A DNA stretch of 44,289 bases, taken from the NCBI GenBank assembly GCA_947475225.1, contig CANJMQ010000029.1:1-44289 (forward strand), in the 5' to 3' direction. The notes beneath the pieces are model-generated. The model did not search any database. It was not told the DNA's origin and saw only the letters and a list, made by a program, of their open reading frames with translations. Each line of letters begins with the position of its first letter. Position 1 is the first letter of the stretch. Origin of the DNA: Bradyrhizobiaceae bacterium (GTDB lineage: Bacteria; Pseudomonadota; Alphaproteobacteria; Rhizobiales; Aestuariivirgaceae). A program made the translations under genes and the position numbers. This document shows, one piece after another, positions 5,148-40,355 of this stretch.

Positions 5148-5270
5148 TTTCGTGTCATTACAGTTGAGTCGGACTGTCCTTCCCGCCTCTTTTAGGCCAT
5201 TCTCGGTCGGCAAGGATCAAATCAATTGAGCGGGCCGTCGGCAAGGCGGTCCCATACGATAGTGAGTGCA

Positions 5271-6269
<999 letters not shown>

Positions 6270-6273
6270 GCTG

Positions 6274-7152
6274 ATGTCATCCACCAACGCCCTCACCCTT
6301 GCTGACCGCGCGGCAGCCCGAGCCAGCGCGCTGCCTCCGCTTCTGATCGAGGCTGAGCGCATCGCTGCGACCGTCATCCTTGGTGAGCATGGCAGAAAGC
6401 GTGCCGGGCCAGGCGAATCCTTCTGGCAATACCGTCCCTACAGTTTCGGCGACTCAACGCAGCGCATCGACTGGCACAAATCGGCCCGCTCGACCCACGT
6501 CTATATCCGCGAGAATGAGTGGGAGGCCGCCAACACGCTGTGGATCTGGTCATCGCCATCCGTCTCGATGACCTTCCGCTCCCACCTTTCACAGGTCACC
6601 AAGGGTGAGCGCGCACAGCTGCTGATGCTGGCGCTTGCCGCGATGGCGCTGCGGGGAAATGAGCGGGTGAGTGCGTTGGGCTCGCCCTATGCGCCGGACC
6701 ACACGCGCATCCAGCTCGTGAGGATCGCCGATTGGTTTCTCAGGTCCGAGGGACCGGCACTCCCGTCCTTCACCCGCATGCCGCGCTTCTCTGGCGCCGT
6801 CATGGCGGGTGACTTCTTCGAGACGCCGGAACAGATTGCCAGTGCCATCACCCCGGTCGCTGCGGCGGGCGTGAAGGGCCACCTCGTGCAGGTGGTCGAT
6901 CCGGCTGAGGAAACGCTGCCCTATTCCGGCCGCGTCGAGTTTCAAGACATGGCGGGGCCACTGAAGTTCCTGTCCTCGCGCACCGAGACGCTGCGCGACG
7001 CCTATGCCGCGCGGCTTGCCGAACATCGCGCGGCCCTGCGCGAGCTGTGCCGCAGGATCGGCTGGACCTTTCTCGTCCACCGGACCGACGAGCCGCCGGC
7101 GCGCACCCTTCTGACCCTTCACGCCCTGATTTCAGGCGGGGCTGGCCGATGA
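6274..7152 (+). CDS. DUF58 domain-containing protein
   Basis: A 292-residue soluble protein with the DUF58 hallmark ESFWQYRPYSFGDSTQRIDWHKSARSTHVYIRENEWE (about residues 47-83), in which GDS..RIDW and SAR are invariant in the family. The rest is a vWA-like alpha/beta fold with a degenerate metal site: the position corresponding to DxSxS reads WIWSSPS. DUF58 proteins are almost always beside moxR and probably are its direct partner. Start ATG at 6274 lies four bases after the moxR stop codon. The gene ends in an ATGA overlap with the next, so the unit is probably co-translated. Confidence 0.9.
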   Translation: MSSTNALTLADRAAARASALPPLLIEAERIAATVILGEHGRKRAGPGESFWQYRPYSFGDSTQRIDWHKSARSTHVYIRENEWEAANTLWIWSSPSVSMTFRSHLSQVTKGERAQLLMLALAAMALRGNERVSALGSPYAPDHTRIQLVRIADWFLRSEGPALPSFTRMPRFSGAVMAGDFFETPEQIASAITPVAAAGVKGHLVQVVDPAEETLPYSGRVEFQDMAGPLKFLSSRTETLRDAYAARLAEHRAALRELCRRIGWTFLVHRTDEPPARTLLTLHALISGGAGR

Positions 7153-9944: not shown

Positions 9945-12001
9945 TGAACTGGAACATCACCTTTGAGCCGCTGCTGCCCTGGGCATTGATCGTGGCGATC
10001 GGCGTGGCGGGCGTGGCCCTGCTCATCGCACTTGCCCTGGGCCGGTCGCGTGGCATTTGGTTACGGGCTCTGTCCTTCGCGTTGATCGTGGCCGCGCTTG
10101 CCAATCCGGTGATCCGCAGCGAGCAGCGACAGCCCCTCCCCGACATCGCCGTCGCCGTGGTCGACCACTCACTAAGCCAGCAGAACGGCGATCGCCCGAA
10201 GCAGGCCGAAGCGGCCGTCACGGCCCTGAAGGAAGCCGTGGCGCGGCTTCCCAACACCGAACTCCGCACTGTCGAGGTGAAGTCCGGAGCGGGAAGCGAC
10301 GACGACGGCACGCGCGCCTTCGAGGCGCTGAACCGGGCGCTTGCCGACGTTCCGCCGGAACGCTTCGCTGGCGCCGTGATGATCACCGATGGCCAGGTCC
10401 ACGATGCACCGGCCGATCCGTCCAAGAGCGGCATCGGCGGCCCGTTGCATGCGCTCATCACCGGTTCGAAATCCGAAAAGGACCGCCAGATCGTCATCGA
10501 GAAGGCGCCACGCTTTGGCATCGTTGGCCAGCAACAGACCATCGCCTTCCGGCTTGATGAGGCCAACGGGCCCGGCCAGGTCGTTCCTGTCACCGTGACG
10601 GTGGACGGCGGCACGCCAACCACCATCGACGTCTCACCCGGGCAGACCGTCGATGTGCCCGTCACCGTCGACCACGCCGGCCAGAACATCGTGGAGATCA
10701 CGGCGCCGCCGCTCGACGGCGAGATTTCGCTGCAGAACAACCGTGCGGTCGCCGTCATCGAAGGCGTGCGCGACCGGCTGCGCGTGCTGCTGGTCTCGGG
10801 CGAGCCGCATCCTGGCGAGCGCACCTGGCGCAACCTGCTGAAGTCGGATGCATCCGTCGACCTCGTGCACTTCACCATTCTGCGTCCGCCCGAGAAGCAG
10901 GACGGCACGCCGACCAAGGAGCTTGCCCTCATCGCCTTCCCGACGCGCGAACTCTTCGTCGACAAGCTCGACCAGTTCGACCTCGTGATCTTCGACCGCT
11001 ACCGCCGCCAATCGGTGCTGCCCGCCGCCTACATGTTCAACATCGCGCAATATGTGAAGAACGGCGGCGCAGTGCTGATCGCCTCCGGCCCCGATCTCGC
11101 GGCGGATGACGGCCTCTACTCAACGCCGCTCTCCGACATCATGGCGGCGGTGCCCACGGGCGATGTGGTGGAAAAGCCGTTCAAGCCCGAACTCACCGGC
11201 CAGGGCAGGAAGCACCCGGTGACCAAGGATCTGCCGGGATCGGACGGAAAGGAGCCGAGCTGGGGCCGCTGGTTCCGCCTCGTCGATACCACCACCAATT
11301 CCGGTGAGACGGTAATGGCAGGGCCGGACGGCAAGCCGCTCCTCGTTCTGGCCCGCCAGGACAAGGGCCGGGTTGCGCAACTCCTCTCCGACCAGGGCTG
11401 GTTGTGGGCGCGCGGCTATGAGGGCGGCGGCCCGCAGACCGAACTGCTGCGCCGCCTCGCCCACTGGCTGATGAAGGAACCCGACCTTGAGGAAGAGGCC
11501 CTCACCGGTAAGCAGAAGGGCAACAGTCTCGTCATCGAGCGCCGCACCATGTCGGACAGCGCCGATCCGGTGACGGTGACGCTGCCCTCCGGCAAGACCG
11601 AGACGGTGAAGCTGGAGAAGGTGTCGCCCGGCCGTTTCGATGGTGCGGTGCCTGTGACCGAGGCCGGGCTGTACCGCCTGGCCGACGGCAAGCTGATGTC
11701 GGTGGCTGCGGCGGGCAGCGGCGAAGCCAAGGAAATGGCCAACCTTCGGGCCACAGCCGACGTCCTCGAACCCGTTGCCAAGGCCTCGGGCGGAGGTTTT
11801 GACTGGCTGGAGGATGGCATGCCGCAGGTCATCAAGGTGTCGGCCGGGCGCCAGATGGCGGGGGCCGGCTGGATCGGTCTGCGGGCCAACGACAAGTTCA
11901 GGGTCGAGACGGTGTCCGATACGCCGCTCTTCGCAACGCTGCTAAGCCTCGCAGTGATTCTGCTCGCCTTTGCTGGCATGTGGTACCGCGAGGGCCATTG
12001 A
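9944..12001 (+). CDS. Membrane protein with vWA/amidotransferase-like domains
   Basis: Last gene of the MoxR unit, 685 residues. Two membrane segments at the N terminus (LLPWALIVAIGVAGVALLIALAL; LRALSFALIVAALANPVI) lead to a vWA-like domain (DIAVAVVDHSLSQ, about 68-80; AVMITDGQVHDAP near 145). A beta-sandwich-like region follows, then an amidotransferase-like fold (LRVLLVSGEPHPGERTWRNLLK near 280; YVKNGGAVLIASGPDLA near 367). A single C-terminal membrane segment (LLSLAVILLAFAGMW) ends the protein, so the bulk is probably periplasmic. Either GTG 9941 or ATG 9944 could start it; the ATG overlaps the previous stop as TGATG and is preferred. The last 60 bases overlap the 3' end of the opposite-strand GNAT gene. 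Confidence 0.85.
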   Translation: MNWNITFEPLLPWALIVAIGVAGVALLIALALGRSRGIWLRALSFALIVAALANPVIRSEQRQPLPDIAVAVVDHSLSQQNGDRPKQAEAAVTALKEAVARLPNTELRTVEVKSGAGSDDDGTRAFEALNRALADVPPERFAGAVMITDGQVHDAPADPSKSGIGGPLHALITGSKSEKDRQIVIEKAPRFGIVGQQQTIAFRLDEANGPGQVVPVTVTVDGGTPTTIDVSPGQTVDVPVTVDHAGQNIVEITAPPLDGEISLQNNRAVAVIEGVRDRLRVLLVSGEPHPGERTWRNLLKSDASVDLVHFTILRPPEKQDGTPTKELALIAFPTRELFVDKLDQFDLVIFDRYRRQSVLPAAYMFNIAQYVKNGGAVLIASGPDLAADDGLYSTPLSDIMAAVPTGDVVEKPFKPELTGQGRKHPVTKDLPGSDGKEPSWGRWFRLVDTTTNSGETVMAGPDGKPLLVLARQDKGRVAQLLSDQGWLWARGYEGGGPQTELLRRLAHWLMKEPDLEEEALTGKQKGNSLVIERRTMSDSADPVTVTLPSGKTETVKLEKVSPGRFDGAVPVTEAGLYRLADGKLMSVAAAGSGEAKEMANLRATADVLEPVAKASGGGFDWLEDGMPQVIKVSAGRQMAGAGWIGLRANDKFRVETVSDTPLFATLLSLAVILLAFAGMWYREGH

Positions 12002-13272: not shown

Positions 13273-14415
13273 ATGACCCAGTCCGTCGCCGTGCGCGCAG
13301 TACGTGGCAAGGAAGACCTCAAGGCCTTCCTCGACGTTCCTTTCGCGCTCTACGCCAAGGACCCCAACTGGGTTGCGCCGCTCTATGTCGAGCGCATGGA
13401 ACACCTCGATCCCGCGAAGAATCCTTATTATCAGCATGCCGAGGTCGAACTCTTCCTCGCCTTGCGCGGCGCCAGGCCCGTAGGCCGCATCTCGGCCCAG
13501 CTCTGCCGCCTGCGCAGCGAGCGCTACAACGATGGCGTCGGCCAGTTCGGCTTTCTCGAGGCCGAAAACGATCCCGCAGTCTTCGCAGCGTTGTTTGAGT
13601 CCGCGGCAGACTGGCTGAAGCAGCGCGGCGCGACCACGATCCAGGGGCCGTTCAGCTTTTCGATCAATGACGAGACGGGTCTGCTCATCGACGGGTTCGA
13701 CACACCGCCCTCGGTAATGATGGGCCATGGCCTGCCCTATTACGCCATGCGGATGGAAGAGTCCGGGTTCACCAAGGCCAAGGATGTGATTGCATATGAT
13801 TTCATCCACAAGGGTGAAATGCCGCGCGCGCTGAATTCCGCCTACAGGAAGGCACTCGCCGACAAGGACGTGACGCTTCGCCCGCTCGACAAGAAGCAGT
13901 TGATGAAGGAACTGCAGATCGTCGTCTCCATCGCCAATGACGCATGGTCGGACAACTGGGGCTTCGTGCCCTGGACCGAGGAGGAGATGACGGCACTTGC
14001 CAACAATCTCAAGATGCTGGTGACCGGCGATTACATTGCAATCGCTGAATACAAGGGCGAGCCAGTCGCCATGGCCATCACGCTGCCCAACATCAATGAC
14101 TGGATCGCCGGCCTCAATGGCAAGCTGCTGCCCTTCGGCTGGACGAAGCTCGCGTGGAGTCTCTATGCCAGACCCCCGGAGGCCGTGCGCATGCCGCTGA
14201 TGGGGCTTCGCAGGAAATATCACGGAACGCCGCTGGGCGCGGTGCTCGGCATGGCGGCGATCGGGCGGGTGATGAAATATCACTTGGGCCGCGGCACAAA
14301 GCGTGGCGAGGCCTCATGGATCCTCGAGGACAACATGCCGATGCGCCGCATGATCGAGAGTTTCGGTGGCCTCCCTTACAAGACCTACCGTGTCTATGAG
14401 AAGTTAATCGGTTAG
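13273..14415 (+). CDS. GNAT-fold acyltransferase, candidate bacterial ceramide synthase (bCerS)
   Basis: A 380-residue protein of the large GNAT-like group often annotated only as N-acetyltransferase or YghO-like. The N-terminal block, VRAVRGKEDLKAFLDVPFALY and then PNWVAPLYVERMEHLDPAKNP (about 7-51), is characteristic of this group. A second conserved block is GPFSFSINDETGLLIDGF (near 120) and a third is IAIAEYKGEPVAMAITLPNIN (near 255). In Caulobacter a GNAT-type acyltransferase, bCerS, N-acylates the sphingoid intermediate and is encoded close to spt. Here the gene opens the plus-strand arm of a locus that converges on spt. The ceramide synthase role is inferred from context and family resemblance. 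Start ATG at 13273; in-frame codons upstream look non-coding. Confidence 0.72.
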   Translation: MTQSVAVRAVRGKEDLKAFLDVPFALYAKDPNWVAPLYVERMEHLDPAKNPYYQHAEVELFLALRGARPVGRISAQLCRLRSERYNDGVGQFGFLEAENDPAVFAALFESAADWLKQRGATTIQGPFSFSINDETGLLIDGFDTPPSVMMGHGLPYYAMRMEESGFTKAKDVIAYDFIHKGEMPRALNSAYRKALADKDVTLRPLDKKQLMKELQIVVSIANDAWSDNWGFVPWTEEEMTALANNLKMLVTGDYIAIAEYKGEPVAMAITLPNINDWIAGLNGKLLPFGWTKLAWSLYARPPEAVRMPLMGLRRKYHGTPLGAVLGMAAIGRVMKYHLGRGTKRGEASWILEDNMPMRRMIESFGGLPYKTYRVYEKLIG

Positions 14416-14430
14416 GCCCCACCCGCGTGA

Positions 14431-14447
14431 GGCAGCGAAGCGCTGCC
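14431..14447 (+). other. Perfect hairpin between acyltransferase and metallophosphoesterase genes
   Basis: GGCAGCG and CGCTGCC form a perfect 7-bp stem with loop AAG, 15 bases after the acyltransferase stop. There is no T-run, so it is not a typical terminator; it may be an RNA-stabilising or processing hairpin. Its position favours the downstream start at 14487 over GTG 14427. Confidence 0.5.
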
Positions 14448-14486
14448 CATCAAGTCCGATCGCAACTCAGAAACCCGCTGTCCCCC

Positions 14487-15407
14487 GTGTTCACGCTCGC
14501 TCATCTCTCAGACCTTCACCTCGGGCCCCTGCCCAAGGGCTCGGCGTACCGGCATTTTGCCGTCAAGCGCGCCGTAGGCGTGATGAACTGGCGGCTCAAC
14601 CGCAACCGGATTCACAACCCCGACGTCGCACTGGCCATCGCCGCCGACATCACCCGCAATGCGCCCGATCACGTGGCCCTGACGGGCGACATCGTGAACG
14701 TCGCGGCACGCGCGGAATTCGCGGCGGCGGCGCGCTGGCTGCAGGCCTTCGGCGCCCCCGACTGGATCAGTTTCGTGCCCGGCAACCATGACTGCTACGT
14801 GCGCGTGGCCTGGCAGCACGGCCTCGCGCACCTTGCGCCCTACATGCTGGGCGACATGCGCGTGCCACTCACCCAGGAGACGGCGCAGATCGCCACGCCA
14901 TTCCCCTATGTGAGGCTGCGCCGAAACGTGGCCGTCATCGGCGTCTCCTCCGGCTTGCCGCAGCCCCTGCACCGGGCCAGCGGCCAGCTCGGGCACATCC
15001 AGCTGAAGTCGCTGGCCTACCTCCTGTCGGACCTTCGCGAGCGCGGCTATGCAAGGGTGGTGATGATCCACCATCCGCCGCTTCCGGGCCTCGCCCGCCC
15101 GCGAAAGGCACTCATCGACGCGGGACCCCTGCGCGACGTTCTGGAGGAACAGGGTGCCGAACTCGTGCTGCACGGGCACAACCACGAACACATGCTGAAC
15201 ACGCTGAATTCGCGCTTCGGCGCGGTGCATGTTCTGGGTGTGCCGTCCGCCTCGACCGTCGCGGACGAGCACCACCCGGTGGCCGCCTGGAACCTCTACC
15301 GAATCCAGCGCCAGGCCGGAAAATGGCAGATCGACGTGTCGATCCGCAGCTATGACCCGGCCAGCCGGCAGATCGGCACCCTCACCGAATTCGCCCTTTC
15401 TTCCTGA
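14487..15407 (+). CDS. Calcineurin-like metallophosphoesterase
   Basis: A 306-residue phosphoesterase with every metal-site motif intact: HLSDLHLG (residues 5-12), ALTGDIVN, FVPGNHDCY, MIHHPP and LHGHNHEH. Related enzymes cleave cyclic nucleotides or lipid-linked phosphoesters (CpdA, LpxH/LpxG-like), so the class alone does not give the substrate. Position between the candidate ceramide synthase and the LptFG pair suggests a lipid-phosphate or headgroup reaction, which is inference. The start is uncertain. GTG 14487 places the first beta strand at the N terminus as in relatives; GTG 14427 would add 20 residues that overlap a perfect hairpin and look non-coding. No strong ribosome site is visible at either. 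Confidence 0.87.
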   Translation: MFTLAHLSDLHLGPLPKGSAYRHFAVKRAVGVMNWRLNRNRIHNPDVALAIAADITRNAPDHVALTGDIVNVAARAEFAAAARWLQAFGAPDWISFVPGNHDCYVRVAWQHGLAHLAPYMLGDMRVPLTQETAQIATPFPYVRLRRNVAVIGVSSGLPQPLHRASGQLGHIQLKSLAYLLSDLRERGYARVVMIHHPPLPGLARPRKALIDAGPLRDVLEEQGAELVLHGHNHEHMLNTLNSRFGAVHVLGVPSASTVADEHHPVAAWNLYRIQRQAGKWQIDVSIRSYDPASRQIGTLTEFALSS

Positions 15408-15470
15408 GCGGGGGGTGGCTAGATTGCAATCGTCACCGAGCCCCCCCTCTCCCGGAAGCTGAAACCCGCC

Positions 15471-16691
15471 TTGCTGCTCCCCATCCTCGACAGGCATGTC
15501 ATGCGGCAGGTGTCGCTGCCCCTCGCCGGCGCGCTGATCATTGGCCTGCTCATGCTGCTCGCTGACCGCATGGTGCGCCTGCTTGACACTACGCTTGGCA
15601 AGAAAAACTCCTTCTCGGTGGTCTTCGAGATGCTGGCCTATCTTGTGCCGCACTATCTCGGCACGGCGCTTCCCGCAGCGCTCTTCCTCGGATTGCTGCT
15701 CGGCTTCGGCAAGATGTCGGCCAATTCCGAAACCGATGCCTTCATGGCGACCGGCGTGGGCCTCAACCGCATGGCCCGCCCGGTGATCCTGATGGGCGTG
15801 GCGATCAGTCTCCTCTCGCTGGTGATCATGGGCTGGCTACAGCCCTATGCGCGCTATGCCTACCGCTCGGTGGTGTTCGACGTACAGAATGTCGAGGTGT
15901 TCTATCTTGCCGAGGAAGGCGTGTTCATGCAGGCGGGCGACCGCACCTTCATAATCGACAAGCTGAACCGCAGTGCGAATTCCTTCGACCATGTGTTCAT
16001 CTATGAGAACAAGGGCGACAAGGGATCCGACACGGTCACCGCCTCGCGCGGGCGTCTGCTTGAAAGCCCGGAAGGCCAGCGGCCCACGCTCCATCTCGAG
16101 GACGGTCACCGCCTCACCTTCAAGACGCCACCAGACGTGACCTCAACTGACCCGGCCATCGGCGAGGCCACCGAATTCGCGCTTGCTGACACGCCGCTCG
16201 GCCGCATCTCCAAAGACATCTTCCGCCCGCGCGGCGATGACGAGCGCGAGTTGACGCTGCCTGAGCTCGTCACCGCCCTCGGCAACCCGCCCCCCAAGGC
16301 AACCTACGCAAACGTCAGTTCTGAACTGAGCGAACGGCTGGTGACGGCTGTGAGCATCCTGATCCTGCCCTTTCTCGCCATTCCCTTCGCCGTGGGCAAC
16401 CGGCGCAGCGCACGGGGCTTTCGCACTGGCGTTGCCCTTGTGCTGATCGTCGTCTACAACGAGATCATTCACCAGGGCGCATCGCTTTCCAACCATGGCA
16501 TCGCCTCGCCGCTGCTCACCATGTGGCTCCCTTGCCTGCTGTTGGCGCTCTTCGCCGCATGGCGCTACATCGGCACCTGCTTCACGCTGCGCAACGATCC
16601 GATCAGCGCGATCATCGACCGCGTAGGAGACGTCTTCGGCAACCTGCGCCATGTCGTGGTTCGCCGCCTTGGATGGGGAACATCGTCATGA
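15471..16691 (+). CDS. lptF: LptF/LptG family permease (LptF-like)
   Basis: A 406-residue YjgP/YjgQ-family membrane protein. Three membrane segments at about residues 15-35, 58-78 and 98-120 are followed by a periplasmic beta-jellyroll region (about 125-270, with FYLAEEGVFMQAGDRTFIIDKL) and three more segments (near 295-315, 325-345 and 350-372). In Lpt systems LptF and LptG with LptB extract a lipid from the inner membrane and pass it to the LptC/LptA bridge. Normally lptFG lie near lptD in alphaproteobacteria; here they lie inside a sphingolipid locus. That suggests a dedicated paralogue, but this is untested. The start is TTG 15471; the next in-frame ATG (15501) would cut the conserved DRHVMRQ lead-in. 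Ends in ATGA with the next gene. Confidence 0.85.
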   Translation: MLLPILDRHVMRQVSLPLAGALIIGLLMLLADRMVRLLDTTLGKKNSFSVVFEMLAYLVPHYLGTALPAALFLGLLLGFGKMSANSETDAFMATGVGLNRMARPVILMGVAISLLSLVIMGWLQPYARYAYRSVVFDVQNVEVFYLAEEGVFMQAGDRTFIIDKLNRSANSFDHVFIYENKGDKGSDTVTASRGRLLESPEGQRPTLHLEDGHRLTFKTPPDVTSTDPAIGEATEFALADTPLGRISKDIFRPRGDDERELTLPELVTALGNPPPKATYANVSSELSERLVTAVSILILPFLAIPFAVGNRRSARGFRTGVALVLIVVYNEIIHQGASLSNHGIASPLLTMWLPCLLLALFAAWRYIGTCFTLRNDPISAIIDRVGDVFGNLRHVVVRRLGWGTSS

Positions 16692-17764
16692 TGAAGATCA
16701 TCGGCTGGATGCTGAACCGCATGGTCGCCATCCGCTTCTTCGGCATATTGCTTGGAATCTCCTTCTTCGTCCTGTCGCTGGACGTTCTGACCAATGCCAA
16801 GGACCTGCAAGCGCTGCGCCCCAACGACTTGACCATCCTGCTGCAGTACATGCTGTACCGCGCGCCTGCGGTGCTCGTAAACTACATGGGCATCAGCATG
16901 CTGCTCGCCATGCTGCTGAGCCTCACGGAACTGAGCTACCGCAACGAAATGGCTGCCATGTGGGCGGCCGGCCTGTCGCCGGGTCGCCTCATCGTGATGC
17001 TGCTGCCGCTGGCCTTCGTGGCGGGGGGCATCAACTTCCTGCTTTCGGATGCGGCCATTCCCGCCACCACCCCGCAACTGCGCGATTGGGGTGTGGGCGA
17101 CTATGGCGCGGAAAAGCTCAAGCTTGGTGACAAGGACCCAATCTGGATGCGCGCCGGGCCGGACATCCTGCGTGCCGGCACCGCAAACGCTGACTCGACC
17201 ACGCTTGACGATGTCATCATCTTCCGCCGTGACGAGCAGGGCCTGCTGCGCGAGCAGATCTATGCAAAACAGGCTGAACTGGCGGACGGCCGCTGGACGC
17301 TCTCCAAGGTGCTCGTCTATTACCGCGACAATCTCCAGCCTTCGCATCTCGACACGCTGGTCTATTCCGGCAACATGAAGCCAGCCCAGGCGGGTGCGCG
17401 CTCCGGCGCGCCGGAAGACATGGCGCTGACCGAGCTGTTCTATTTCATCGACAACCAGGGCTTTGGCATCAGGCCGGTATGGGTCTACGAGACCTGGGCC
17501 AACAAGCGCATCTCGCTGTTTTTCTCTGGCCTGCTGATGATGTGCCTGTGCATCCCGCTGGCCACCCGCTTCCGTCGTGGCGGAGGCCTGGGCGCGCTGT
17601 TCGCGGTGGGCGTAGGCATCGGCTTCATCTATTTCATCATCGACGGCATCTCGCTCACCATGGGCGAACTGGGCTTCGTCAGGCCATGGATGGCTGCCTG
17701 GCTGCCGATCCTCGCTTTTGGGTCACTCGCCGTCGTCATGACGCTCAGGTCGGAAACGGTGTGA
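16688..17764 (+). CDS. lptG: LptF/LptG family permease (LptG-like)
   Basis: A 358-residue partner of the preceding permease, same YjgP/YjgQ fold. N-terminal segments include FFGILLGISFFVLSLDVL (about 17-34), a second near 60-80 and a third near 100-118. The periplasmic jellyroll spans about 125-260 (DPIWMRAGPDILRAGTAN; LREQIYAKQAELADGRWTL), and three segments close the C terminus (LFFSGLLMMCLCIPLATRF; FAVGVGIGFIYFIIDGIS; AAWLPILAFGSLAVVM). The start ATG 16688 overlaps the LptF stop as ATGA; a second ATG follows at 16691. It overlaps the lipid kinase gene by GTGA at its end. Tight coupling of permease, permease and lipid kinase is strong evidence for one pathway. No LptB, LptC or LptA gene is in the window. 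Confidence 0.86.
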   Translation: MMKIIGWMLNRMVAIRFFGILLGISFFVLSLDVLTNAKDLQALRPNDLTILLQYMLYRAPAVLVNYMGISMLLAMLLSLTELSYRNEMAAMWAAGLSPGRLIVMLLPLAFVAGGINFLLSDAAIPATTPQLRDWGVGDYGAEKLKLGDKDPIWMRAGPDILRAGTANADSTTLDDVIIFRRDEQGLLREQIYAKQAELADGRWTLSKVLVYYRDNLQPSHLDTLVYSGNMKPAQAGARSGAPEDMALTELFYFIDNQGFGIRPVWVYETWANKRISLFFSGLLMMCLCIPLATRFRRGGGLGALFAVGVGIGFIYFIIDGISLTMGELGFVRPWMAAWLPILAFGSLAVVMTLRSETV

Positions 17765-18729
17765 GCGGGCCGTTGCGGCGTGCAGGGCTGATCGTCAATC
17801 CACGGTCCGGAAAGGGCAGTGGCAAGGGTCAGGCGCTGGCGGAAGCGCTGAGGGGCGACAGCAGCATCTCTCTGCACGTGATCGAGCACTTCGGGCATCT
17901 CGAGGACATCATCTCCAGCATGGCGCGCGAACAGGTGACCGACCTGTTCATCAGCTCTGGCGACGGCACCATCCAGGAGATTCTCACGCTGCTGGCCGAA
18001 CGACGGCCCTTTCCGGAGTTGCCGCGCATCTGCCTCCTGCCGCATGGCACCACCAACCTCAGCGCCAATGACCTCGGCTTCGTGAGCCGCTCCATCGCGA
18101 CGCAGGCGGCCTTCCTGAGAAAACCGGAAGCCCGCAGCCTCGTCACGCGCAACACCATCCGCTGCCTCAATCCCGGCGACGGCAAGCTGCGCCACGGCAT
18201 GTTCGTCGGCACCGGCGCCATGTCGGTCGCCACGCACTACTGCCAGCAGGCCTTCAACGAACAGGGCGTGACGGGTCAGTGGGCCGTCGCCAAGACGCTG
18301 ATGACCGCGGTAGGCAAGTACCTGTTTTCAAGGCCCGACGCACAAGACGAGGGACGCTTCGACAGGCCCTATGCCATTTCAGTCGACGCCAACGGCCGCC
18401 GCATCGCGCATGGAACGCAGCTTCTCCAGATATCGACAACACTCGATACGCTGCTGCTCAACAGCCACCCCTTCTGGGGCGGCAAGACGGCGCCGATCCG
18501 GACGACCGTCCTCCCCTACCCTGTCCCCTCGGTGCCACGCTGGATGCTACCCATCATGTATGGCGGCGAGAACCACGCCAGTCCGCCGGGTGCCACGAGC
18601 TTCTGTTCAGATGCACTGGAGGTTTACTCCGACGTGATGTTCGTGATCGATGGCGAATTCTTTCCGCCACCCGTCGGCGAGCCGCTGCGGCTCGAAACAG
18701 GCCCATTGTTCACCTTCATCAGGAGCTGA
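17761..18729 (+). CDS. Diacylglycerol kinase-type lipid kinase, candidate ceramide kinase
   Basis: A 322-residue member of the DAGK catalytic/LCB5-YegS superfamily, which phosphorylates lipid hydroxyls with ATP. Motifs: LIVNPRSGKGSGKG (about 10-23), the nucleotide loop FISSGDGTIQEIL (63-75) and LLPHGTTNLSAND (92-104). The loop reads SGDG where most bacterial DAG kinases have GGDG; SGDG is also the form in eukaryotic sphingosine kinases. In Caulobacter a kinase of this superfamily (CpgB) phosphorylates ceramide as the first step of headgroup assembly. Placement beside spt and the candidate ceramide synthase makes the same role likely here. The GTG start at 17761 is fixed by GTGA overlap with lptG and by the first beta strand starting six residues later. 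Confidence 0.82.
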   Translation: MSGPLRRAGLIVNPRSGKGSGKGQALAEALRGDSSISLHVIEHFGHLEDIISSMAREQVTDLFISSGDGTIQEILTLLAERRPFPELPRICLLPHGTTNLSANDLGFVSRSIATQAAFLRKPEARSLVTRNTIRCLNPGDGKLRHGMFVGTGAMSVATHYCQQAFNEQGVTGQWAVAKTLMTAVGKYLFSRPDAQDEGRFDRPYAISVDANGRRIAHGTQLLQISTTLDTLLLNSHPFWGGKTAPIRTTVLPYPVPSVPRWMLPIMYGGENHASPPGATSFCSDALEVYSDVMFVIDGEFFPPPVGEPLRLETGPLFTFIRS

Positions 18730-18861
18730 GCCTCCGCGCTGACCTTTCCTTCGCCTTGCTCCAGCTCGACTGGTGAATCGTTTTCCTGCTGCTGAATAGG
18801 GCTCTACGGATCAGGTCCGGCGAAGGTATTGCAAGAGAATTGTGGACGGTGGATGGGCTGC

Positions 18862-20070
18862 CTAACCGTTGGCGACCTTCTTGCCGTGGCCCTGCGCCAC
18901 CACCGCGCCGAACAGTTCGATGATCCGGTCGATCTCGGCGTCCGAATGCGCAGCGGACACCGAGCAGCGCAGCAGGCAGAGCTTGTTGGGCGTACCGGGC
19001 GGCAGCGCGATGTTGACATAGACACCCGCCTTGAGCAGCGCGCCCCACATCGCAATCGTCGAGGGCTCGTCCGGGCACCGCACCGCCACGACTGGGCTCA
19101 CCACGTCACAGCCAAGCTCCAGGCCCAGATCCTTGAATCCGTGGAACAGCCGCGCCGAATTCTCGGCAAGCTTCTTCCTGCGCTGCGGTTCGGCCGCCAG
19201 CTTGCGGATCGCCGCCAGCGAAGTGGCGATCGACGCCGGTGAGGACGACGCTGTGAACATGTACGGCCGCATGGCATAACGCAGGTATTCGAAATAGGGA
19301 TGGTCACCCGCCCCGAAGCCGCCGATGGCGCCAACGCTCTTCGAGAAGGTGCCGACCACGAAGTCCACTTCCTTCTCGAGCCCCGCTTCATCAGCCAGGC
19401 CACGGCCATGCGGGCCCAGCACGCCGAAGGAATGCGCCTCGTCGACGAGCAGCTGGAAGCCGTGCTTCTTCTTCACCTCGACAAAATCGGCCAAGGGGGC
19501 GCGGTCGCCCATCATCGAATAGATGCCTTCGAGGACGACGAGCTTGCCGCCTTCATCCGCCTCGCCGCGCGCCAGCCGCTTGTCGAGGTCGGCGGCGTCG
19601 TTGTGGCGGAAGCGCACCAGCTTGGCGCCGGACAGCGTGCAGCCGTCATAGATCGAGCTGTGCGAATCGGCGTCGAGATAGATCGTGTCGCGGGCCCCTG
19701 CGAGGCCCGACATCATGCCGAGGTTCGCCTGGTAGCCGGTGGTGAACACGATGCAATGCTTGCGGTCGAGGAAGGTCGCGAACTCAAGCTCGAGCTCACG
19801 GTGGAGCGAAAACGAGCCATTGGCAATGCGTGAGCCCGTTGTGCCGGTGCCGAATTCGGCGAGTGCCTTCTGGCCTGCCGCGATGCACTCGGCATCGAAC
19901 GTGATGCCCATGTAGTTGTTGGTGCCCGCAAGGATCGTCTCGCGGCCGTCGATCAGGGCGCGGGTGGGCGAGATGAGCTTTTCGTTGACCACGCCAACGG
20001 CGTCGCCGCCAAGCGCCTTCATGCGCATGTGACGGTCGGAGATTGTCGCGAGCTTGGCGAGCAGGTCCAT
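18862..20070 (-). CDS. spt: Serine palmitoyltransferase (alpha-oxoamine synthase family)
   Basis: PLP enzyme condensing L-serine with a fatty acyl thioester to 3-ketosphinganine, the first committed sphingolipid step. 402 residues, soluble, normal for bacterial SPT. Landmarks: GTGTTGSRIANGS (74-86), substrate-stacking His137 in DADSHSS, DEAHSFG (210-216) with the pyridine-contacting Asp210, and the Schiff-base Lys244 in GTFSKSVGAIGGF. Relatives (KBL, BioF, HemA) share these, so the SPT call rests on the adjoining ACP, reductase and acyl ligase, the same gene set as the Caulobacter ceramide genes. AAGGGG precedes the ATG at 20068-20070; only three bases separate it from the ACP stop. The gene is last in its unit and converges on the lipid kinase across 132 bases without a clear terminator. 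Confidence 0.9.
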   Translation of the reverse strand: MDLLAKLATISDRHMRMKALGGDAVGVVNEKLISPTRALIDGRETILAGTNNYMGITFDAECIAAGQKALAEFGTGTTGSRIANGSFSLHRELELEFATFLDRKHCIVFTTGYQANLGMMSGLAGARDTIYLDADSHSSIYDGCTLSGAKLVRFRHNDAADLDKRLARGEADEGGKLVVLEGIYSMMGDRAPLADFVEVKKKHGFQLLVDEAHSFGVLGPHGRGLADEAGLEKEVDFVVGTFSKSVGAIGGFGAGDHPYFEYLRYAMRPYMFTASSSPASIATSLAAIRKLAAEPQRRKKLAENSARLFHGFKDLGLELGCDVVSPVVAVRCPDEPSTIAMWGALLKAGVYVNIALPPGTPNKLCLLRCSVSAAHSDAEIDRIIELFGAVVAQGHGKKVANG

Positions 20071-20073
20071 GCC

Positions 20074-20313
20074 TTACCCCTTCTTTGTCCGGGCTTCGAC
20101 CACCTTGGCGAGGTCGGCCACCGTGCGCGTTTCGGAGAGCACGTTGAGCGGGATCTCGATGTCGAAATGGTCCTCAACCTCCATCACGAAGTCCATCACC
20201 GTGACGGAGTCGATGTTGAGGTCGGTCGAGATGTCGGTGGCGGCCGAGAGAACCGTGCCATTGGTATTGAAAGGTTCGAGCAGCTTGCAGAGCTGGGATA
20301 CGGTGTCGGTCAT
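20074..20313 (-). CDS. Acyl carrier protein dedicated to sphingolipid synthesis
   Basis: A 79-residue ACP. Ser36 in NIDSVTVMDFVMEVEDHF is the phosphopantetheine attachment site; DSV replaces the DSL of housekeeping ACPs. The overall pattern (four helices, acidic helix II, a basic tail EARTKKG) fits a specialised ACP. Located between cerR and spt, it most likely carries the fatty acyl group loaded by the upstream ligase and offered to Spt, as shown for the Caulobacter counterpart. The ATG at 20311-20313 overlaps the cerR stop as ATGA, and AAGGA sits seven bases ahead. A longer upstream reading frame is only the antisense or out-of-frame continuation into cerR. Confidence 0.92.
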   Translation of the reverse strand: MTDTVSQLCKLLEPFNTNGTVLSAATDISTDLNIDSVTVMDFVMEVEDHFDIEIPLNVLSETRTVADLAKVVEARTKKG

Positions 20314-21281
20314 TGAGACATCCTTGAACTGGCGGTCCTTGTATCGGTGCCGCGCCCCTGAGGCAACCATCCGGCACTGCGGTACCAGGTCACGGTTTCG
20401 GCAAAACCCCTGTCGAACGAAATGGGGTCGTCCAGCGCCAATGCGCTGGGTCTCGCCACCCAGTCCGGGTGATAGAGTTCGGCGATCTTGCCGCGGTTCA
20501 CCATGCCGGGCTTGCCCGTCAAGCGGGAGAAGCCTTCCGCAACGGCGGCCACGGCGGCCGGGATGGCCCGCGGCAAAAACAGCGGGCGGATCGGAGCACC
20601 ACGGAACAAGGACCCGGTGCGGATCAGGTCGGCCCAGCAATAGCCCCCCGGTTGACCGTCACTCACCTCGTGCAGACCCTGCTCCCGGGTCTCGACCGCC
20701 ATGACGATGAGCCGCGCCAAGTCGCGCCCGTGAATCAGCGAGAAGCGCGCTTCGGGACGGCCAGGAATGACGGCCACCGGTCGCGTCAGTTCCTTGATCA
20801 GCGGGAGCGTGCCGCGATCGCCCGGACCATAGACGGCGGGCGGCCGGAGAAGGATGGCGTTGAGCGCCGTCATGCGGTCGCGCACCATGTCTTCACCTGC
20901 ACGCTTGCTGGCGGCATAGAAGGAGAGCTGCGGCTCGCGCGCGGCGAGCGATGAAACATGCACGAAGCGGCGCACACCCGCCTTCTCTGCGGCATCGGCC
21001 AGAGCCCGCGTACCCAGCGCATTGACACGGAAATAGCCCTCGCGGTCCAGCGCGGTGAGTGCGCCGGCGAGGTGAATGACGGCATCTGCCCCACCCACCA
21101 GCCGCGCCAGCGCGGCACCATCGGCAAGATCGCCCTGCATCGTCTCGACGCCCGCCGCCAGCCCCGCCTTGTCAGGGCTGCGCACCAGCGCGCGCAGCGC
21201 ATAGCCACGCAGCAGCAATTCGGAAACGGCGTGCCGCCCGGCAAAGCCCGTGGCGCCGGTGATGGCGATGATGCGATTCAT
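20310..21281 (-). CDS. cerR: NAD-dependent epimerase/dehydratase family, ceramide reductase-like
   Basis: An extended SDR of 323 residues. The Rossmann motif is ITGATGFAGRHA (7-18), VIHLAGAL marks the central strand, and the active site is SFYAASKRAGE with Tyr-x3-Lys. Its C-terminal half is less conserved, as in the epimerase family. In Caulobacter the epimerase-like gene between the ACP and the acyl ligase (CerR) reduces the 3-keto group of the N-acylated product, and the gene order here is the same. By sequence alone it could act on another ketone or sugar; context carries the call. Start ATG 21279-21281 puts the Rossmann strand at the N terminus. It lies 28 bases after the ligase stop and overlaps the ACP start. 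Confidence 0.83.
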   Translation of the reverse strand: MNRIIAITGATGFAGRHAVSELLLRGYALRALVRSPDKAGLAAGVETMQGDLADGAALARLVGGADAVIHLAGALTALDREGYFRVNALGTRALADAAEKAGVRRFVHVSSLAAREPQLSFYAASKRAGEDMVRDRMTALNAILLRPPAVYGPGDRGTLPLIKELTRPVAVIPGRPEARFSLIHGRDLARLIVMAVETREQGLHEVSDGQPGGYCWADLIRTGSLFRGAPIRPLFLPRAIPAAVAAVAEGFSRLTGKPGMVNRGKIAELYHPDWVARPSALALDDPISFDRGFAETVTWYRSAGWLPQGRGTDTRTASSRMSQ

Positions 21282-21309
21282 GATGGCCTGCGCGAAGGGC
21301 GAAGCCTTC

Positions 21310-23109
21310 TCAGAGGGCGGCCTCGAGGCTATCGGCCACGGCGAGCAACGACGGCGCGGAAACCTCTGCAATCTCGCCGGACAGGAACTTCTGCTTGGCT
21401 GCGGCGCGTGACAGCTTGCCCGATGAGGTGAAGGGCAGGCTCTTCGGCGGCACCATGACGACCCTGCATTCGACACCGGCAGAGCGGTGGATGACGGCGG
21501 ATACCTCATGACGCAGCGCCTCGACGCTTGCCGTGTCCTGCACGCGGCAATGCACCAGCACGGTAACCTCGTCATCACCCTCGTCATTCTCGACGGCGAA
21601 GGCGGCAACATCGCCGGAGCGCAGCGGATCGATCTGTTCGGCGGCCCATTCGATGTCCTGCGGCCAGATGTTGCGGCCATTGTGCAGGATCAGGTCTTTG
21701 GCGCGGCCGGTGATCACAATCTCGCCGTCCAGCCAATAGCCCATGTCGCCGGTATCGAGGAAGCCGTTCTGGCCGATCACCGAGGCAGTGGCTTCGTCAT
21801 TGTGATAGTAGCCGGACATCAGGCTCGGCGTGTTGACGAAGATGCGTCCCACGGCGCGCGCGCCGAGGGCGTTGCCGCGCTGGTCGCGGATCTCGACGGT
21901 GCTGCCCGCCATCGGGCGGCCGCAGACCACGAAGCTGCGGGCGTTGGAGCCACGGGCCGGAACCGCCCGGCCCTCAAGCTTCAGCGCATGGCGATCGATC
22001 GAGTCGACGCGGATGGGGGCGTCAGGGTCGATGAAGGAAATGGCCAGTGTGGTTTCGGCCATGCCGTAGCTCGGCAGGAAGGCATGCGAACGGAAGCCGG
22101 CGACGGAGAGATGTGCGGCGAAGCCCTCGAGGACATCGGCGCGCACCATGTCGCCGCCAATGCCGGCGATGCGCAGGCGCGACAGGTCGAGCGTCACCGC
22201 CTCACCGTTGATGCGGCGCGCAGCAAGGTCATAGCCGAAGCTCGGTGAATAGGTGATCGTCGACTTGTTGTCCGACATCAGCTTCAGCCACAGTGCCGGC
22301 CGGCGGGCAAAAGATGTGGTGGCGAGGAAGTCGACGCTCACCTGACCCATGGCGGCCGACAGGCAGAATCCGACAAGACCCATGTCATGATACAGCGGCA
22401 GCCACGAGAATGCGCGATCCTCGGGATTGATGCGCATGCCATCATTCAGGATGCCACGGGTGTTGGCCATGATGGCCTTCTGCGAGATCAGCACACCCTT
22501 GGGGTTCGACGTCGAGCCGGAGGAATACTGGATATAGGCGTCTTCATCCGCCTTGAAGGCCTCGAGCTTCGTGGCGGCCTCGGGCAGCACCTGCAGTTCG
22601 GCGTGGGTCAGAACGCGGCGCGCACCCGCACGGGCCGCACCTTCGGTGATGTGGCCGAGCAGGTCCTCACCCGTCACCACGGTCTGCGCCTTGGCGGCGG
22701 CAAGCATGCCGGCGACGCGGTCGATGTAGGAGTCCTTGCCGCCGATATACATGGTGTAGGGCATTGGGCAGGGAATGAGGCCGGCATACTGGCAGCCGAA
22801 GAACACCGCCATGAATTCGGGACCCGTCTCGGCGACGACGGCGACGCGGTCGCCGCGCTTCAGGCCGAGAGAGAGAAGCTTGCGCGCCGTGGAAATCGCC
22901 TGGCGGCGAAGTTCGGCATAGGGCAGCACGCTCTGCAGCGCCCCGCGCGGAGAATAGAAGTTGAAGCCGGTGACGCCTTTGGCTGCGTAGTCGAGTCCTT
23001 CGGCGAGCGTGCCGAAGCCGCCGAGATTCTGGGCAAGGCTGCGATTTGAGGTCGGCGTGACCGATCCGGCCGTGTAGGCGTCAGTGCCCCGCTTCAAAGC
23101 GCTCTGCAT
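21310..23109 (-). CDS. Fatty acyl-AMP ligase / acyl-ACP synthetase
   Basis: Adenylate-forming enzyme of 599 residues, the FAAL/acyl-CoA synthetase type. The phosphate loop is YIQYSSGSTSNPKGVLIS (192-209), the A5 motif SYGMAETT (347-354), the A7 motif FLDTGDMGYW (450-459) and A8 GRAKDLILHNGRN (468-480). A SSGKLSRAA block near the C terminus carries the catalytic Lys of motif A10. It likely activates a fatty acid and transfers it to the dedicated ACP to feed Spt, as the homologous gene does in Caulobacter. First gene of the minus-strand arm, after a 169-base upstream gap that probably holds the promoter. The ATG 23107-23109 was chosen as the first one consistent with family length; its ribosome site is weak. 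Confidence 0.88.
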   Translation of the reverse strand: MQSALKRGTDAYTAGSVTPTSNRSLAQNLGGFGTLAEGLDYAAKGVTGFNFYSPRGALQSVLPYAELRRQAISTARKLLSLGLKRGDRVAVVAETGPEFMAVFFGCQYAGLIPCPMPYTMYIGGKDSYIDRVAGMLAAAKAQTVVTGEDLLGHITEGAARAGARRVLTHAELQVLPEAATKLEAFKADEDAYIQYSSGSTSNPKGVLISQKAIMANTRGILNDGMRINPEDRAFSWLPLYHDMGLVGFCLSAAMGQVSVDFLATTSFARRPALWLKLMSDNKSTITYSPSFGYDLAARRINGEAVTLDLSRLRIAGIGGDMVRADVLEGFAAHLSVAGFRSHAFLPSYGMAETTLAISFIDPDAPIRVDSIDRHALKLEGRAVPARGSNARSFVVCGRPMAGSTVEIRDQRGNALGARAVGRIFVNTPSLMSGYYHNDEATASVIGQNGFLDTGDMGYWLDGEIVITGRAKDLILHNGRNIWPQDIEWAAEQIDPLRSGDVAAFAVENDEGDDEVTVLVHCRVQDTASVEALRHEVSAVIHRSAGVECRVVMVPPKSLPFTSSGKLSRAAAKQKFLSGEIAEVSAPSLLAVADSLEAAL

Positions 23110-23278: not shown

Positions 23279-23809
23279 TCAATATTTTAAAAGCCCGGTA
23301 TAGAGTGCCGCAGCAACCAGCGCGAGGGCCCCGAACGCAAAGCCCGAAACCCAGGCCAGAATGAGCGTGGCGGAACTGTATCCCAGCCCTGAAACGGGCG
23401 GCAGCACGGCGTTCTGGCGCTCGCGTGCAACCAGGCGGTGCGCCATGTGGCGGCGGATGGCGGCGGCGGCCTGTTCGCGGTCGCTGCCCTCGAAGAGAAT
23501 GTCGCGGCTGTCCTGCCGGTCCTGCAGCACCCGATAGGTGCGATGGTCCGGCTCCATGATGACATAGGAGGTCAGATCAACCCAGAGTTTTGGCGGCTCT
23601 CCGGGGATCAGCGTGAGGTCGAACAGTTCCTTCGCCTCGGCTGTCGCCTGGACAGTGGGAAGAAGCTCGTCCTTGAGGATCTGCAGCCGCAGTGTCTTGG
23701 AATCGCGCAAGTCCAGGGCGGCCTCGAAATGGGCCGCCTCGGCGAGCCGGGCCTCGCGGAGGTCATCCGCCAGGCCGTCCCGATCCTGTCTCACCGCGGA
23801 CTTCACCAC
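23279..23809 (-). CDS. Conserved hypothetical protein with C-terminal membrane anchor
   Basis: A 176-residue protein. Residues 1-125 are soluble and charged (ALDLRDSKTLRLQILKDELLP; LTLIPGEPPKLWVDLTSYVIMEPDHRTYRVLQD), and residues about 145-174 form one membrane segment (ATLILAWVSGFAFGALALVAAALYTGLL) ending at the C terminus. I recognise the soluble part as a family of uncharacterised proteins in Hyphomicrobiales, but know no function. The start is GTG 23807-23809 because GAGGAG lies nine bases upstream; the frame continues upstream without homology to a TTG at 23941. It faces the same way as the sphingolipid synthesis genes, 169 bases ahead of them, so it might be co-regulated, but separate transcription is as likely. 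Confidence 0.68.
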   Translation of the reverse strand: MVKSAVRQDRDGLADDLREARLAEAAHFEAALDLRDSKTLRLQILKDELLPTVQATAEAKELFDLTLIPGEPPKLWVDLTSYVIMEPDHRTYRVLQDRQDSRDILFEGSDREQAAAAIRRHMAHRLVARERQNAVLPPVSGLGYSSATLILAWVSGFAFGALALVAAALYTGLLKY

Positions 23810-23960
23810 GCCTAAACACTCCTCACCTGCCTTTGGCTGTCCCAAAGTGGAACGGCGGAACCAGGGCAGACCCACGTCCCAAGCGATCCCTGCATGCCCC
23901 ATGCCAGCCCCAAGCATTCCCCTCCCGCCGGTCACACGCAAGAGGAAGCCGAAGCTTGCG

Positions 23961-25219: not shown

Positions 25220-25984
25220 CTAGCGCTCCTCGAAGGGTCTTGCGAGCAATCCTGTGAAGCCCCTGTCCTTCAGCCCTTGCGTGCCGATCGGCATCTCGGG
25301 TGTGCGCAGCGTCTGGCTGCGGCTACCGAACAGCCGGTCCCACAGGGAGAACAGCGAGGCATAGTTCGAATCCGTGTCGCGCCGGATCGCATGGTGGTGC
25401 ACCCAGTGGATGGAAGGCGTGACGATCACCCATGACATGGCCCGTTCCAACCGCGGCGGCACCCGCAGGTCGGAGTGATGGAACATGGTGTTGAAGGCCA
25501 GCAGCGTCTCGAACACCACCACGCTCACCAGCGGCACGCCGAGAGCCAAGATCACACCCGCCCGCACCAGCGACGAGATCACCACTTCGCCAAAATGGAA
25601 GCGCAGCCCTGAACTTGCGTCCAGAAACTCGTCCAGATGATGAACCTCGTGGAAGCGCCACAGCAGCGGCCACTCATGGTTCGCCCGGTGCCACCAGTAG
25701 ATCCAGACATCGAGCACGGTGATGTCGAGCACCAGCCCCGTCCATCCGCCCCACCACCCTGGCCTCCACCCCAGTGCGTGCGACGCCGCGAACACCGAGA
25801 CGGGCACCACGATCAGTGGCGAGAGCAGCGCGTTGAGCCCGGCGAGCGACAGGTTCTTCGCCACGCGCTTCACCCCACCGACGATGCGGGCCATCGGAAA
25901 CATCCGCTCCGCCACCAGCAGCAGGGCGAGCCAGCCCAGCACGGCGACGGCCTTGTAGGCCAGCAGAGCTGACAGTTGTTCCAT
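25220..25984 (-). CDS. Sterol desaturase/fatty acid hydroxylase family protein
   Basis: A 254-residue integral membrane di-iron enzyme. The histidine clusters that bind the iron pair are complete: H99-x3-H103 (WHRANH), H112-x2-HH (HEVHH, 112-116), FHH at 168-170 and HWVHHH at 193-198. Four or so membrane segments surround them (residues 8-25, 50-68, 82-98, 140-165). Members hydroxylate or desaturate sterols, carotenoids, fatty acids or sphingoid bases. No sterol gene is present in the window, so an acyl or sphingoid lipid is a reasonable but unproven substrate. ATG 25982-25984 overlaps the AbrB stop as TGATG. The frame continuing upstream lies within the AbrB gene. Confidence 0.88.
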   Translation of the reverse strand: MEQLSALLAYKAVAVLGWLALLLVAERMFPMARIVGGVKRVAKNLSLAGLNALLSPLIVVPVSVFAASHALGWRPGWWGGWTGLVLDITVLDVWIYWWHRANHEWPLLWRFHEVHHLDEFLDASSGLRFHFGEVVISSLVRAGVILALGVPLVSVVVFETLLAFNTMFHHSDLRVPPRLERAMSWVIVTPSIHWVHHHAIRRDTDSNYASLFSLWDRLFGSRSQTLRTPEMPIGTQGLKDRGFTGLLARPFEER

Positions 25985-40248: not shown

Positions 40249-40355
40249 GGTGACCTCCTCAGTCCTCGGGCAGACATATGGGGAGTTGCAGGCGGTTTCG
40301 CCAGCGGAATCTGCGGCGGTTGACCCTTGGGCCCGGGGCTTCCATTCTCCCACCC

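Follow-up and report, generated by a model that had tools for sequence, protein, structure and literature searches.

A sphingolipid locus with its own LptF and LptG in Aestuariivirga, a genus in which LpxC is not found

Introduction

Which lipid is carried by an LptF/LptG pair that is encoded among ceramide genes, in a genome where neither a further LptF or LptG nor LpxC, the committed enzyme of lipid A synthesis, is detected? The question is raised by a sphingolipid locus at positions 13273-23109 of a 44,289-nucleotide stretch of DNA (C29:1-44289, here called the window) from a draft genome of 4.1 Mb and 87.8% completeness (G000), which belongs to the genus Aestuariivirga (Aestuariivirgaceae, Hyphomicrobiales). 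With a probability of roughly 70%, we propose from sequence comparisons that this locus makes a phosphosphingolipid that replaces lipopolysaccharide, and exports it through its own LptF and LptG joined to the ordinary LptD.

According to the accessible part of PMC11324152, sphingolipids can replace lipopolysaccharide, for example in Sphingomonas koreensis, and LptC2, LptF2 and LptG2 of Caulobacter have been proposed as probable movers of phosphosphingolipids, an idea untried there; the accessible part of PMC11087976 adds that no sphingolipid flippase or lipid transporter has yet been identified. In the literature that we searched, largely without subscription papers, no work was found that treats Aestuariivirga in connection with sphingolipids or with loss of lipopolysaccharide, and none that describes a pattern of one LptF/LptG pair per lipid. 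The pathway itself is of a kind known from Caulobacter, and the interest lies less in its occurrence in Hyphomicrobiales than in the setting, which is new: no committed lipid A enzyme is found, LptD is kept, and the remaining LptF and LptG are tied to ceramide genes. With a genus that is without LpxC and keeps LptD, and in which every LptF and LptG found is of a sphingolipid type, the guess about the second LptF/LptG of Caulobacter becomes a rule that can be tested. Such a genus also suggests that lipopolysaccharide can be lost repeatedly where a sphingolipid route exists, and it offers a natural system for Lpt machines with a cargo other than lipopolysaccharide.

Gene content of the locus and identity of its serine palmitoyltransferase

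As evidenced by open reading frames and domain searches, nine intact genes fill the locus in two convergent arms, all of them where the original prediction had placed them (Table 1). The tightly spaced minus arm consists of aasR-cerR-acpR-spt, and the plus arm of cerS, a metallophosphoesterase gene, lptF, lptG and a lipid kinase gene, for which domains and synteny agree with the roles assigned before. The facing stops of the arms lie at 18729 (+) and 18862 (-) with a gap of 132 bp, overlaps of 4 bp join lptF to lptG, lptG to the kinase gene and the start of acpR to the stop of cerR, and the metallophosphoesterase probably starts at 14487. Measured against two relatives (loci L075 and L081), Ka/Ks is 0.06-0.30 for all nine genes, which are therefore under purifying selection; because the locus also recurs in named genomes, it is not a product of chance.

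The order of the minus arm is identical to that of the ceramide genes of Caulobacter crescentus (CC_1168-CC_1152; PMC11324152, accessible part), as had been claimed, and counterparts of Caulobacter cerS, LptF2/LptG2, the ceramide kinase CC_1160 and the phosphoesterase CC_1158 are present in the window. Unlike Caulobacter, the locus lacks genes of the CC_1161, CC_1159 and CC_1157 types, and its plus arm forms one convergent gene row. It likewise differs from the situation in Sphingomonadales, whose sphingolipid genes are scattered according to the same part of that source, in that a single 10-kb locus is found here, in Hyphomicrobiales.

For Spt, as for the other enzymes, the activity is predicted by homology. 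Among the NCBI Spt models the protein is above cut-off only for the 'BetaP' model NF047599; it falls short of the cut-offs for the corresponding AlphaP and CFB models and for the BioF and KBL models. The nearest solved chains are bacterial serine palmitoyltransferases, at 444 bits, and 2-amino-3-ketobutyrate ligases reach at most 193 bits. In the tree, all 35 Spt rows stand on one side of a branch with a Shimodaira-Hasegawa-like approximate likelihood ratio (SH-aLRT) support of 99, and the HemA and KBL of G000, which are encoded by separate genes that each pass their own model, fall outside the Spt clade. The original prediction had named a grouping of Spt with KBL, BioF or HemA as evidence against itself; the protein falls with the serine palmitoyltransferases. 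That it is a relative of KBL, BioF or HemA in a cluster that does not serve sphingolipids would agree with the common pyridoxal phosphate-dependent family of all these enzymes and with weaker matches of Spt to KBL/BioF/HemA-type models, but in view of the models, the solved relatives and the tree we give this next to no credence and regard it as refuted as far as sequence allows. By the same comparisons, the window Spt is a true serine palmitoyltransferase. The name of the 'BetaP' model hints at a recent transfer from Betaproteobacteria, which we reject because the clade that holds the window Spt is of Hyphomicrobiales type and lies close to Rhodovibrionaceae, Kiloniellaceae and Geminicoccaceae; as the tree holds no row that is betaproteobacterial by name, this is a partial test.

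The window CerS-like protein has no Pfam match above cut-off. A sub-threshold match to the GNAT family PF13480 is seen, 17 of 26 members of the CerS family match GNAT PF00583 at E values up to 0.1, and a GNAT fold is predicted from these Pfam matches. When compared with the CerS encoded at the corresponding position in two Caulobacteraceae loci, the window protein is 44-45% identical over 98-99% of its length, and in this comparison by identity the assignment as a bCerS-like acyltransferase holds. CerR is 39-42% identical to the Caulobacteraceae CerR of three loci.

LpxC in Aestuariivirga and other Alphaproteobacteria

LpxC (PF03331) was found in none of the 25 Aestuariivirga genomes, 19 of which are at least 90% complete; the same search did detect it in E. 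coli and Caulobacter as well as in two further controls. In this the window genome differs from Caulobacter vibrioides, a control genome, and resembles Sphingomonas, which has Spt and no lipopolysaccharide, a combination that is also probable for the window genome. Outside the genus, LpxC was detected in 14 of 16 relatives from the same order, and both genomes without it (G028 and G038) carry Spt. In a class-wide draw of 385 Alphaproteobacteria genomes, 328 have LpxC and 49 have Spt at E values up to 1e-85, a cut-off of our own choice that lies beyond the best paralogue (4e-67). Spt is present in 29 of the 57 genomes without LpxC versus 20 of the 328 with LpxC (Fisher p 2e-15, calculated on genomes that are not independent). 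In three families (f47, f98 and f111), genomes with Spt and without LpxC (G199; G120 and G235; G133) have relatives with LpxC and without Spt.

Two types of LptF and LptG

LptD is present in all 25 Aestuariivirga genomes and in all 16 order relatives. G000 has exactly two LptF/LptG domains, both in the sphingolipid locus, and in this it differs from Caulobacter with its 'second versions' of LptC, F and G (PMC11324152, accessible part). Judged by gene places on contigs among the 16 order relatives, with open reading frames listed for G037, 11 of these 16 relatives have LptF and LptG next to LptD (G025, G026, G027, G030, G032, G034, G035, G036, G037, G039 and G040). The remaining five comprise G028 and G038, which are without LpxC, G033, where the genes are on different contigs, and G029 and G031, where they are outside the places listed. 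In G000 the row lptD-surA-pdxA-rsmA is kept, with no lptF or lptG before lptD.

The number of LptF/LptG domains follows the presence of LpxC. Four or five are found in 19 of the 20 class genomes with both Spt and LpxC, G119 having two. The 29 genomes with Spt and without LpxC have two domains in 23 cases, three in one, four in one (G381) and none in four. When the counts are taken per family, 12 of 13 families with LpxC reach a median of at least four, versus 0 of 13 without. The Spt-bearing order relatives have five (G030, with LpxC), four (G038, without) and two (G028, without).

In the LptF tree, calculated with a quick method and supported by SH-aLRT values only, one branch (97) separates 31 rows of an H side from 44 rows of an S side. 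The H side holds all 13 Spt-less rows and 18 rows labelled 'both lipids'. The S side, to which the window LptF belongs, holds all 21 rows from 20 class genomes without LpxC, all six Aestuariivirga rows, G028 and 16 'both lipids' rows. Note that the label predates the LpxC result for the order set and includes G038, later found to be without LpxC.

Hidden Markov models of the two types extended this typing. Rows L228, L219, L235, L236 and L237 were left out of the training and scored afterwards, the S training sets included LptF/LptG of the window, G004, G005 and G012, and the second pair of G296, the third domain of G284 and one pair of G242 lie outside the typing. The pairs of G235, G303, G304 and G380, all without LpxC, are of S type, and each of the two types is represented by one pair in G198 and in G267. 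LptF is of S type in all 24 class genomes besides G000 that have LptF/LptG and no LpxC, the third domain of G284 being unplaced. In the 24 other Aestuariivirga genomes, all 54 LptF/LptG matches over the Pfam cut-off score best with the S models, 13 of them lying away from the usual pair or lptG. Where two pairs coexist with Spt and LpxC, the H pair is beside LptD in 11 genomes (G066, G163, G164, G198, G203, G242, G270, G354, G383, G395 and G412); in G286 and G395 the second pair or gene is divergent, leaning towards S. LptD was detected in 25 of 28 Spt-bearing class genomes without LpxC and in 20 of 20 with it. Since each has a single LptD match, with the exception of two fragments in G267, one LptD appears to serve both cargos.

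Proposed export of a sphingolipid through LptD

With the canonical LptB2FGC-A-DE transporter, the window genome has homologues of LptF, LptG and LptD in common; unlike that system, its LptF and LptG belong to a separate clade linked to spt and are not part of an lptF-lptG-lptD row. Because Aestuariivirga appears to have lost LpxC and the ancestral lptF and lptG and has kept LptD, we suggest that the Lpt bridge now carries sphingolipid. The kinase would form ceramide-1-phosphate, the S-type LptF and LptG, together with an LptB, would extract the lipid from the inner membrane, and the Lpt bridge would deliver it to the ordinary LptD. What is carried and where in the membrane it ends up are both predictions of this scheme. 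With somewhat less assurance we also favour a wider reading, in which the outer leaflet of Aestuariivirga would consist of ceramide phosphate and not lipopolysaccharide, lptF and lptG would have been deleted beside lptD, and a sphingolipid-specific LptF/LptG would feed LptD and so form a sphingolipid translocon. Alphaproteobacteria would, on that reading, have one LptF/LptG pair per surface lipid, and several lineages would have given up lipopolysaccharide independently, after the sphingolipid pair had become established.

A number of observations speak against these proposals, the first group concerning lipid A. The window genome is only 87.8% complete. LpxB was found in none of the 25 Aestuariivirga genomes, and LpxA, LpxD, LpxK and WaaA were not searched for. 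LpxB is moreover a weak marker that was missed in the LpxC-bearing G030, G033, G040 and G067 and found over cut-off in G098 and G315, which are without LpxC; its search covered the Spt-bearing class genomes other than G198, G267, G303, G304, G320, G354, G365, G380 and G398. Furthermore, 28 class genomes without LpxC are also without Spt at the cut-off used. A plain Caulobacter-type locus might then coexist with normal lipopolysaccharide, lipid A being made by divergent or non-orthologous enzymes that escaped the search and exported by the LptF and LptG of the locus. The presence of LptD would fit, and the four missed LpxB genes imply that divergent Lpx genes exist. Such an arrangement nevertheless seems improbable to us, as LpxC is found in no genome of the genus and in the great majority of class genomes and order relatives, and as the LptF of the locus is of the S type, to which none of the tree's 13 rows without Spt belongs.

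The second group concerns the Lpt machine. G119 has LpxC and Spt and only an H-type LptF with its two domains; G381, without LpxC, has two S-type pairs, and G284, also without it, has the third, unplaced domain. G038 from the same order, with neither LpxC nor an LpxB match and an assembly of 430 contigs, keeps an H-type LptG. G111 has LptD and no LptF/LptG match, and no flippase of the CC_1166 type was found in the window locus. In G106, G320 and G398, which have Spt and are without LpxC, neither LptF/LptG nor LptD was matched, so that not every genome with Spt and without LpxC depends on Lpt. These three genomes form one genus whose spt loci (L252, L253 and L254) contain, of the families sought, only aasR, cerR, acpR, spt, the phosphoesterase and cerS; they may have an outer membrane with sphingolipid and no Lpt system, and one may speculate that only charged sphingolipids need Lpt.

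The same three genomes, with another route or no export, would suit the view that sphingolipids do replace lipopolysaccharide in the window genome but that LptF/LptG and LptD carry some other cargo, for example an unrelated glycolipid, and ceramides travel otherwise. We know of no transport experiment, which counts in its favour. We consider this view rather unlikely, given that LptF and LptG lie among sphingolipid genes (LptF in 30 and LptG in 32 of the 44 spt loci described below) and that the number of LptF/LptG domains tracks the number of surface lipids. Export of the sphingolipid itself through LptD remains our preferred reading.

The predicted product

In the Caulobacteraceae locus L142, the genes spt, X1, kinase, X2, metallophosphoesterase, X3, lptF, lptG and cerS follow one another as do CC_1162 to CC_1154. 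From this match we equate X1 with CC_1161, X2, a CDP-alcohol phosphatidyltransferase, with CC_1159, the phosphoesterase with CC_1158 and X3 with CC_1157, equations that derive from gene order and the published description and not from Caulobacter crescentus sequences. In the loci of the window, L075, L076, L077 and L081 a kinase is present and X1, X2 and X3 are not found; in the close relatives L078, L079 and L083 all three are there. The CC_1161-type gene (X1, CpgC) was not found anywhere in the incomplete draft of G000 and is present in 11 of the 25 genomes of the genus, and the CC_1159-type gene (CpgA) was not found in the window locus, the rest of the genome not having been searched. The claim that the locus is complete thus stands for its nine genes and not for the headgroup. 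In Caulobacter, CpgC is needed for CPG, and CpgA and CpgD are needed for CPG2 (PMC12275187, accessible part), and CpgB was shown to be a ceramide kinase (PMC10331486, accessible part). With no CC_1161- or CC_1159-type gene next to the kinase, and with CpgC needed for CPG, synthesis by the window locus is predicted to end close to ceramide-1-phosphate if no genes elsewhere extend the product, and the lipid exported in the clade of the window may be little more than that.

At the position that corresponds to CpgB, the window locus encodes a DAGK_cat kinase that is 25-29% identical to its counterparts in two Caulobacteraceae loci. The window protein and its near relatives have the motif SGDGT, and most of the family, including the two Caulobacteraceae loci compared, has GGDGT; human sphingosine kinase also has SGDG. 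In the metallophosphoesterase, the likely metal ligands D9, H11, D68, N100, H101, H195, H196 and H231 are invariant in 22 members, and the nearest solved relatives by sequence are phosphodiesterases of the Rv0805/Icc type. In five loci (L084, L085, L088, L089 and L091) no kinase is shown, yet LptG, phosphoesterase and cerS are kept, and in G106, G320 and G398 phosphoesterase and cerS stand beside spt with no kinase or LptF/LptG there. As it is kept in these kinase-less loci, the phosphoesterase appears to belong to the ceramide core and not to headgroup addition.

The five kinase-less loci, together with a fatty acid hydroxylase gene 2 kb beyond aasR, are also what one would expect if the product were a glycosphingolipid or another decorated ceramide, with headgroup genes elsewhere and with kinase and phosphoesterase in side reactions. 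We hold this to be unlikely, yet deserving attention. Against a side role, the intact kinase gene of the window shows constraint (Ka/Ks 0.28) and is bound to lptG by the 4-bp overlap.

Distribution of the locus

The original prediction had read a Hyphomicrobiales host from the sequence, which the assignment to Aestuariivirga bears out, and had called such loci unusual there. Spt is found at an identity of at least 73% in 24 of the 25 Aestuariivirga genomes, the exception being G011, which is 79% complete; the match is partial in G008, G009 and G010 and has one stop codon inside it in G004 and G022. In the 16 order genomes outside Aestuariivirgaceae, Spt occurs in three (G028, G030 and G038, at 61-76%), each from another family. 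The locus is therefore standard in Aestuariivirga and uncommon in the order, as had been expected.

The proposed comparison of spt neighbourhoods across Alphaproteobacteria drew on named loci, the best 80 from a scan of genome contigs, which lean to near relatives; those near the window include the Aestuariivirga loci L076, L081 and L083 with Spt identities of 91%, 90% and 78%. For 44 of the 80 loci, spt is flanked by at least 9 kb of sequence on either side, and in these the locus recurs. Besides lptF and lptG, for which one and two of the matches, respectively, score below 60 bits and could belong to the other type, acpR is found in 44, aasR in 41, cerR in 39, cerS in 29, the metallophosphoesterase in 28, the kinase in 25 and the CC_1161-type gene in 23. 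Clustering of ceramide genes is thus commoner than found in PMC9386255, according to the accessible part of which C. crescentus and E. coli BL21 are the only ones of the compared genomes to have the five genes in a cluster.

In part of the genus (L084, L085, L086, L089 and L098), lptF lies away from the locus with lptG still beside spt, and the stray lptF is of S type in seven such genomes (G003, G012, G015, G019, G020, G021 and G022). A lone S-type LptF away from the locus is also seen in G001, G008, G017 and G018, and in G006, which is 6% contaminated, a second LptD match lies near a lone S-type LptF (L265, G006:C783:1-5000).

Gene coordinates and neighbouring genes

Table 1. Genes of the sphingolipid locus and two features beyond aasR, in positions of the window
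Feature	Position	Strand	Basis
cerS-like N-acyltransferase, GNAT-like	13273..14415	+	Caulobacter CC_1154 position; 44-45% identity to two Caulobacteraceae CerS
calcineurin-like metallophosphoesterase	14487..15407	+	PF00149, 45.3 bits; syntenic with Caulobacter CC_1158
lptF, sphingolipid-type (S clade)	15471..16691	+	PF03739, 223.6 bits; Caulobacter LptF2 CC_1156 position; LptF tree
lptG, sphingolipid-type	16688..17764	+	PF03739, 199 bits; LptG2 CC_1155 position
lipid kinase, probable ceramide kinase	17761..18729	+	DAGK_cat, 56.4 bits; SGDGT motif; CpgB/CC_1160 position
spt, serine palmitoyltransferase	18862..20070	-	NF047599, 578.8 bits, cut-off 500; tree
acpR, dedicated acyl carrier protein	20074..20313	-	PP-binding PF00550, 39.5 bits
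cerR, SDR-type reductase	20310..21281	-	Epimerase PF01370, 107.7 bits; 41% identity to Caulobacter sp. HMWF025
aasR, fatty acyl-ACP synthetase / fatty acyl-AMP ligase	21310..23109	-	NF006624, 754.3 bits, cut-off 600
220-aa protein, C-terminal hydrophobic stretch, start codon uncertain	23279..23941	-	similar open reading frame in 13 named loci
fatty acid hydroxylase, possible sphingolipid hydroxylase	25220..25984	-	PF04116, 94.3 bits (longer open reading frame); start ATG 25984

The segment between the arms (18725-18870) folds no better than its shuffles (z +1.05) and no terminator-like site was found in it; a strong terminator common to both arms is rejected on these grounds. A scan for sigma-70 promoters gave no site versus a mean of 1.8 in shuffles and is uninformative.

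The 220-residue protein has no Pfam or NCBIfam match, and its relatives sit directly upstream of aasR in 13 named loci. Relatives of the PF04116 hydroxylase occur in eight named spt loci, seven of them without a CC_1161-type gene beside spt; in the eighth, L080, nothing is shown beyond spt on the side where that gene would lie. By position alone, a tie of this hydroxylase to the sphingolipid pathway is possible. That it is the hydroxylase found beside cerS in other loci is rejected, as no such open reading frame is among its matches.

Just before the locus, the plus strand encodes a MoxR-type ATPase, a DUF58 protein, a BatA/DUF4159 protein and a further large protein (5226-12001), an operon of Bat/aerotolerance-like character. 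Towards the end of the window (40278-44140, plus strand), a calcineurin-like phosphoesterase is followed by an AAA/SMC-like protein in an arrangement that resembles an SbcD-SbcC pair.

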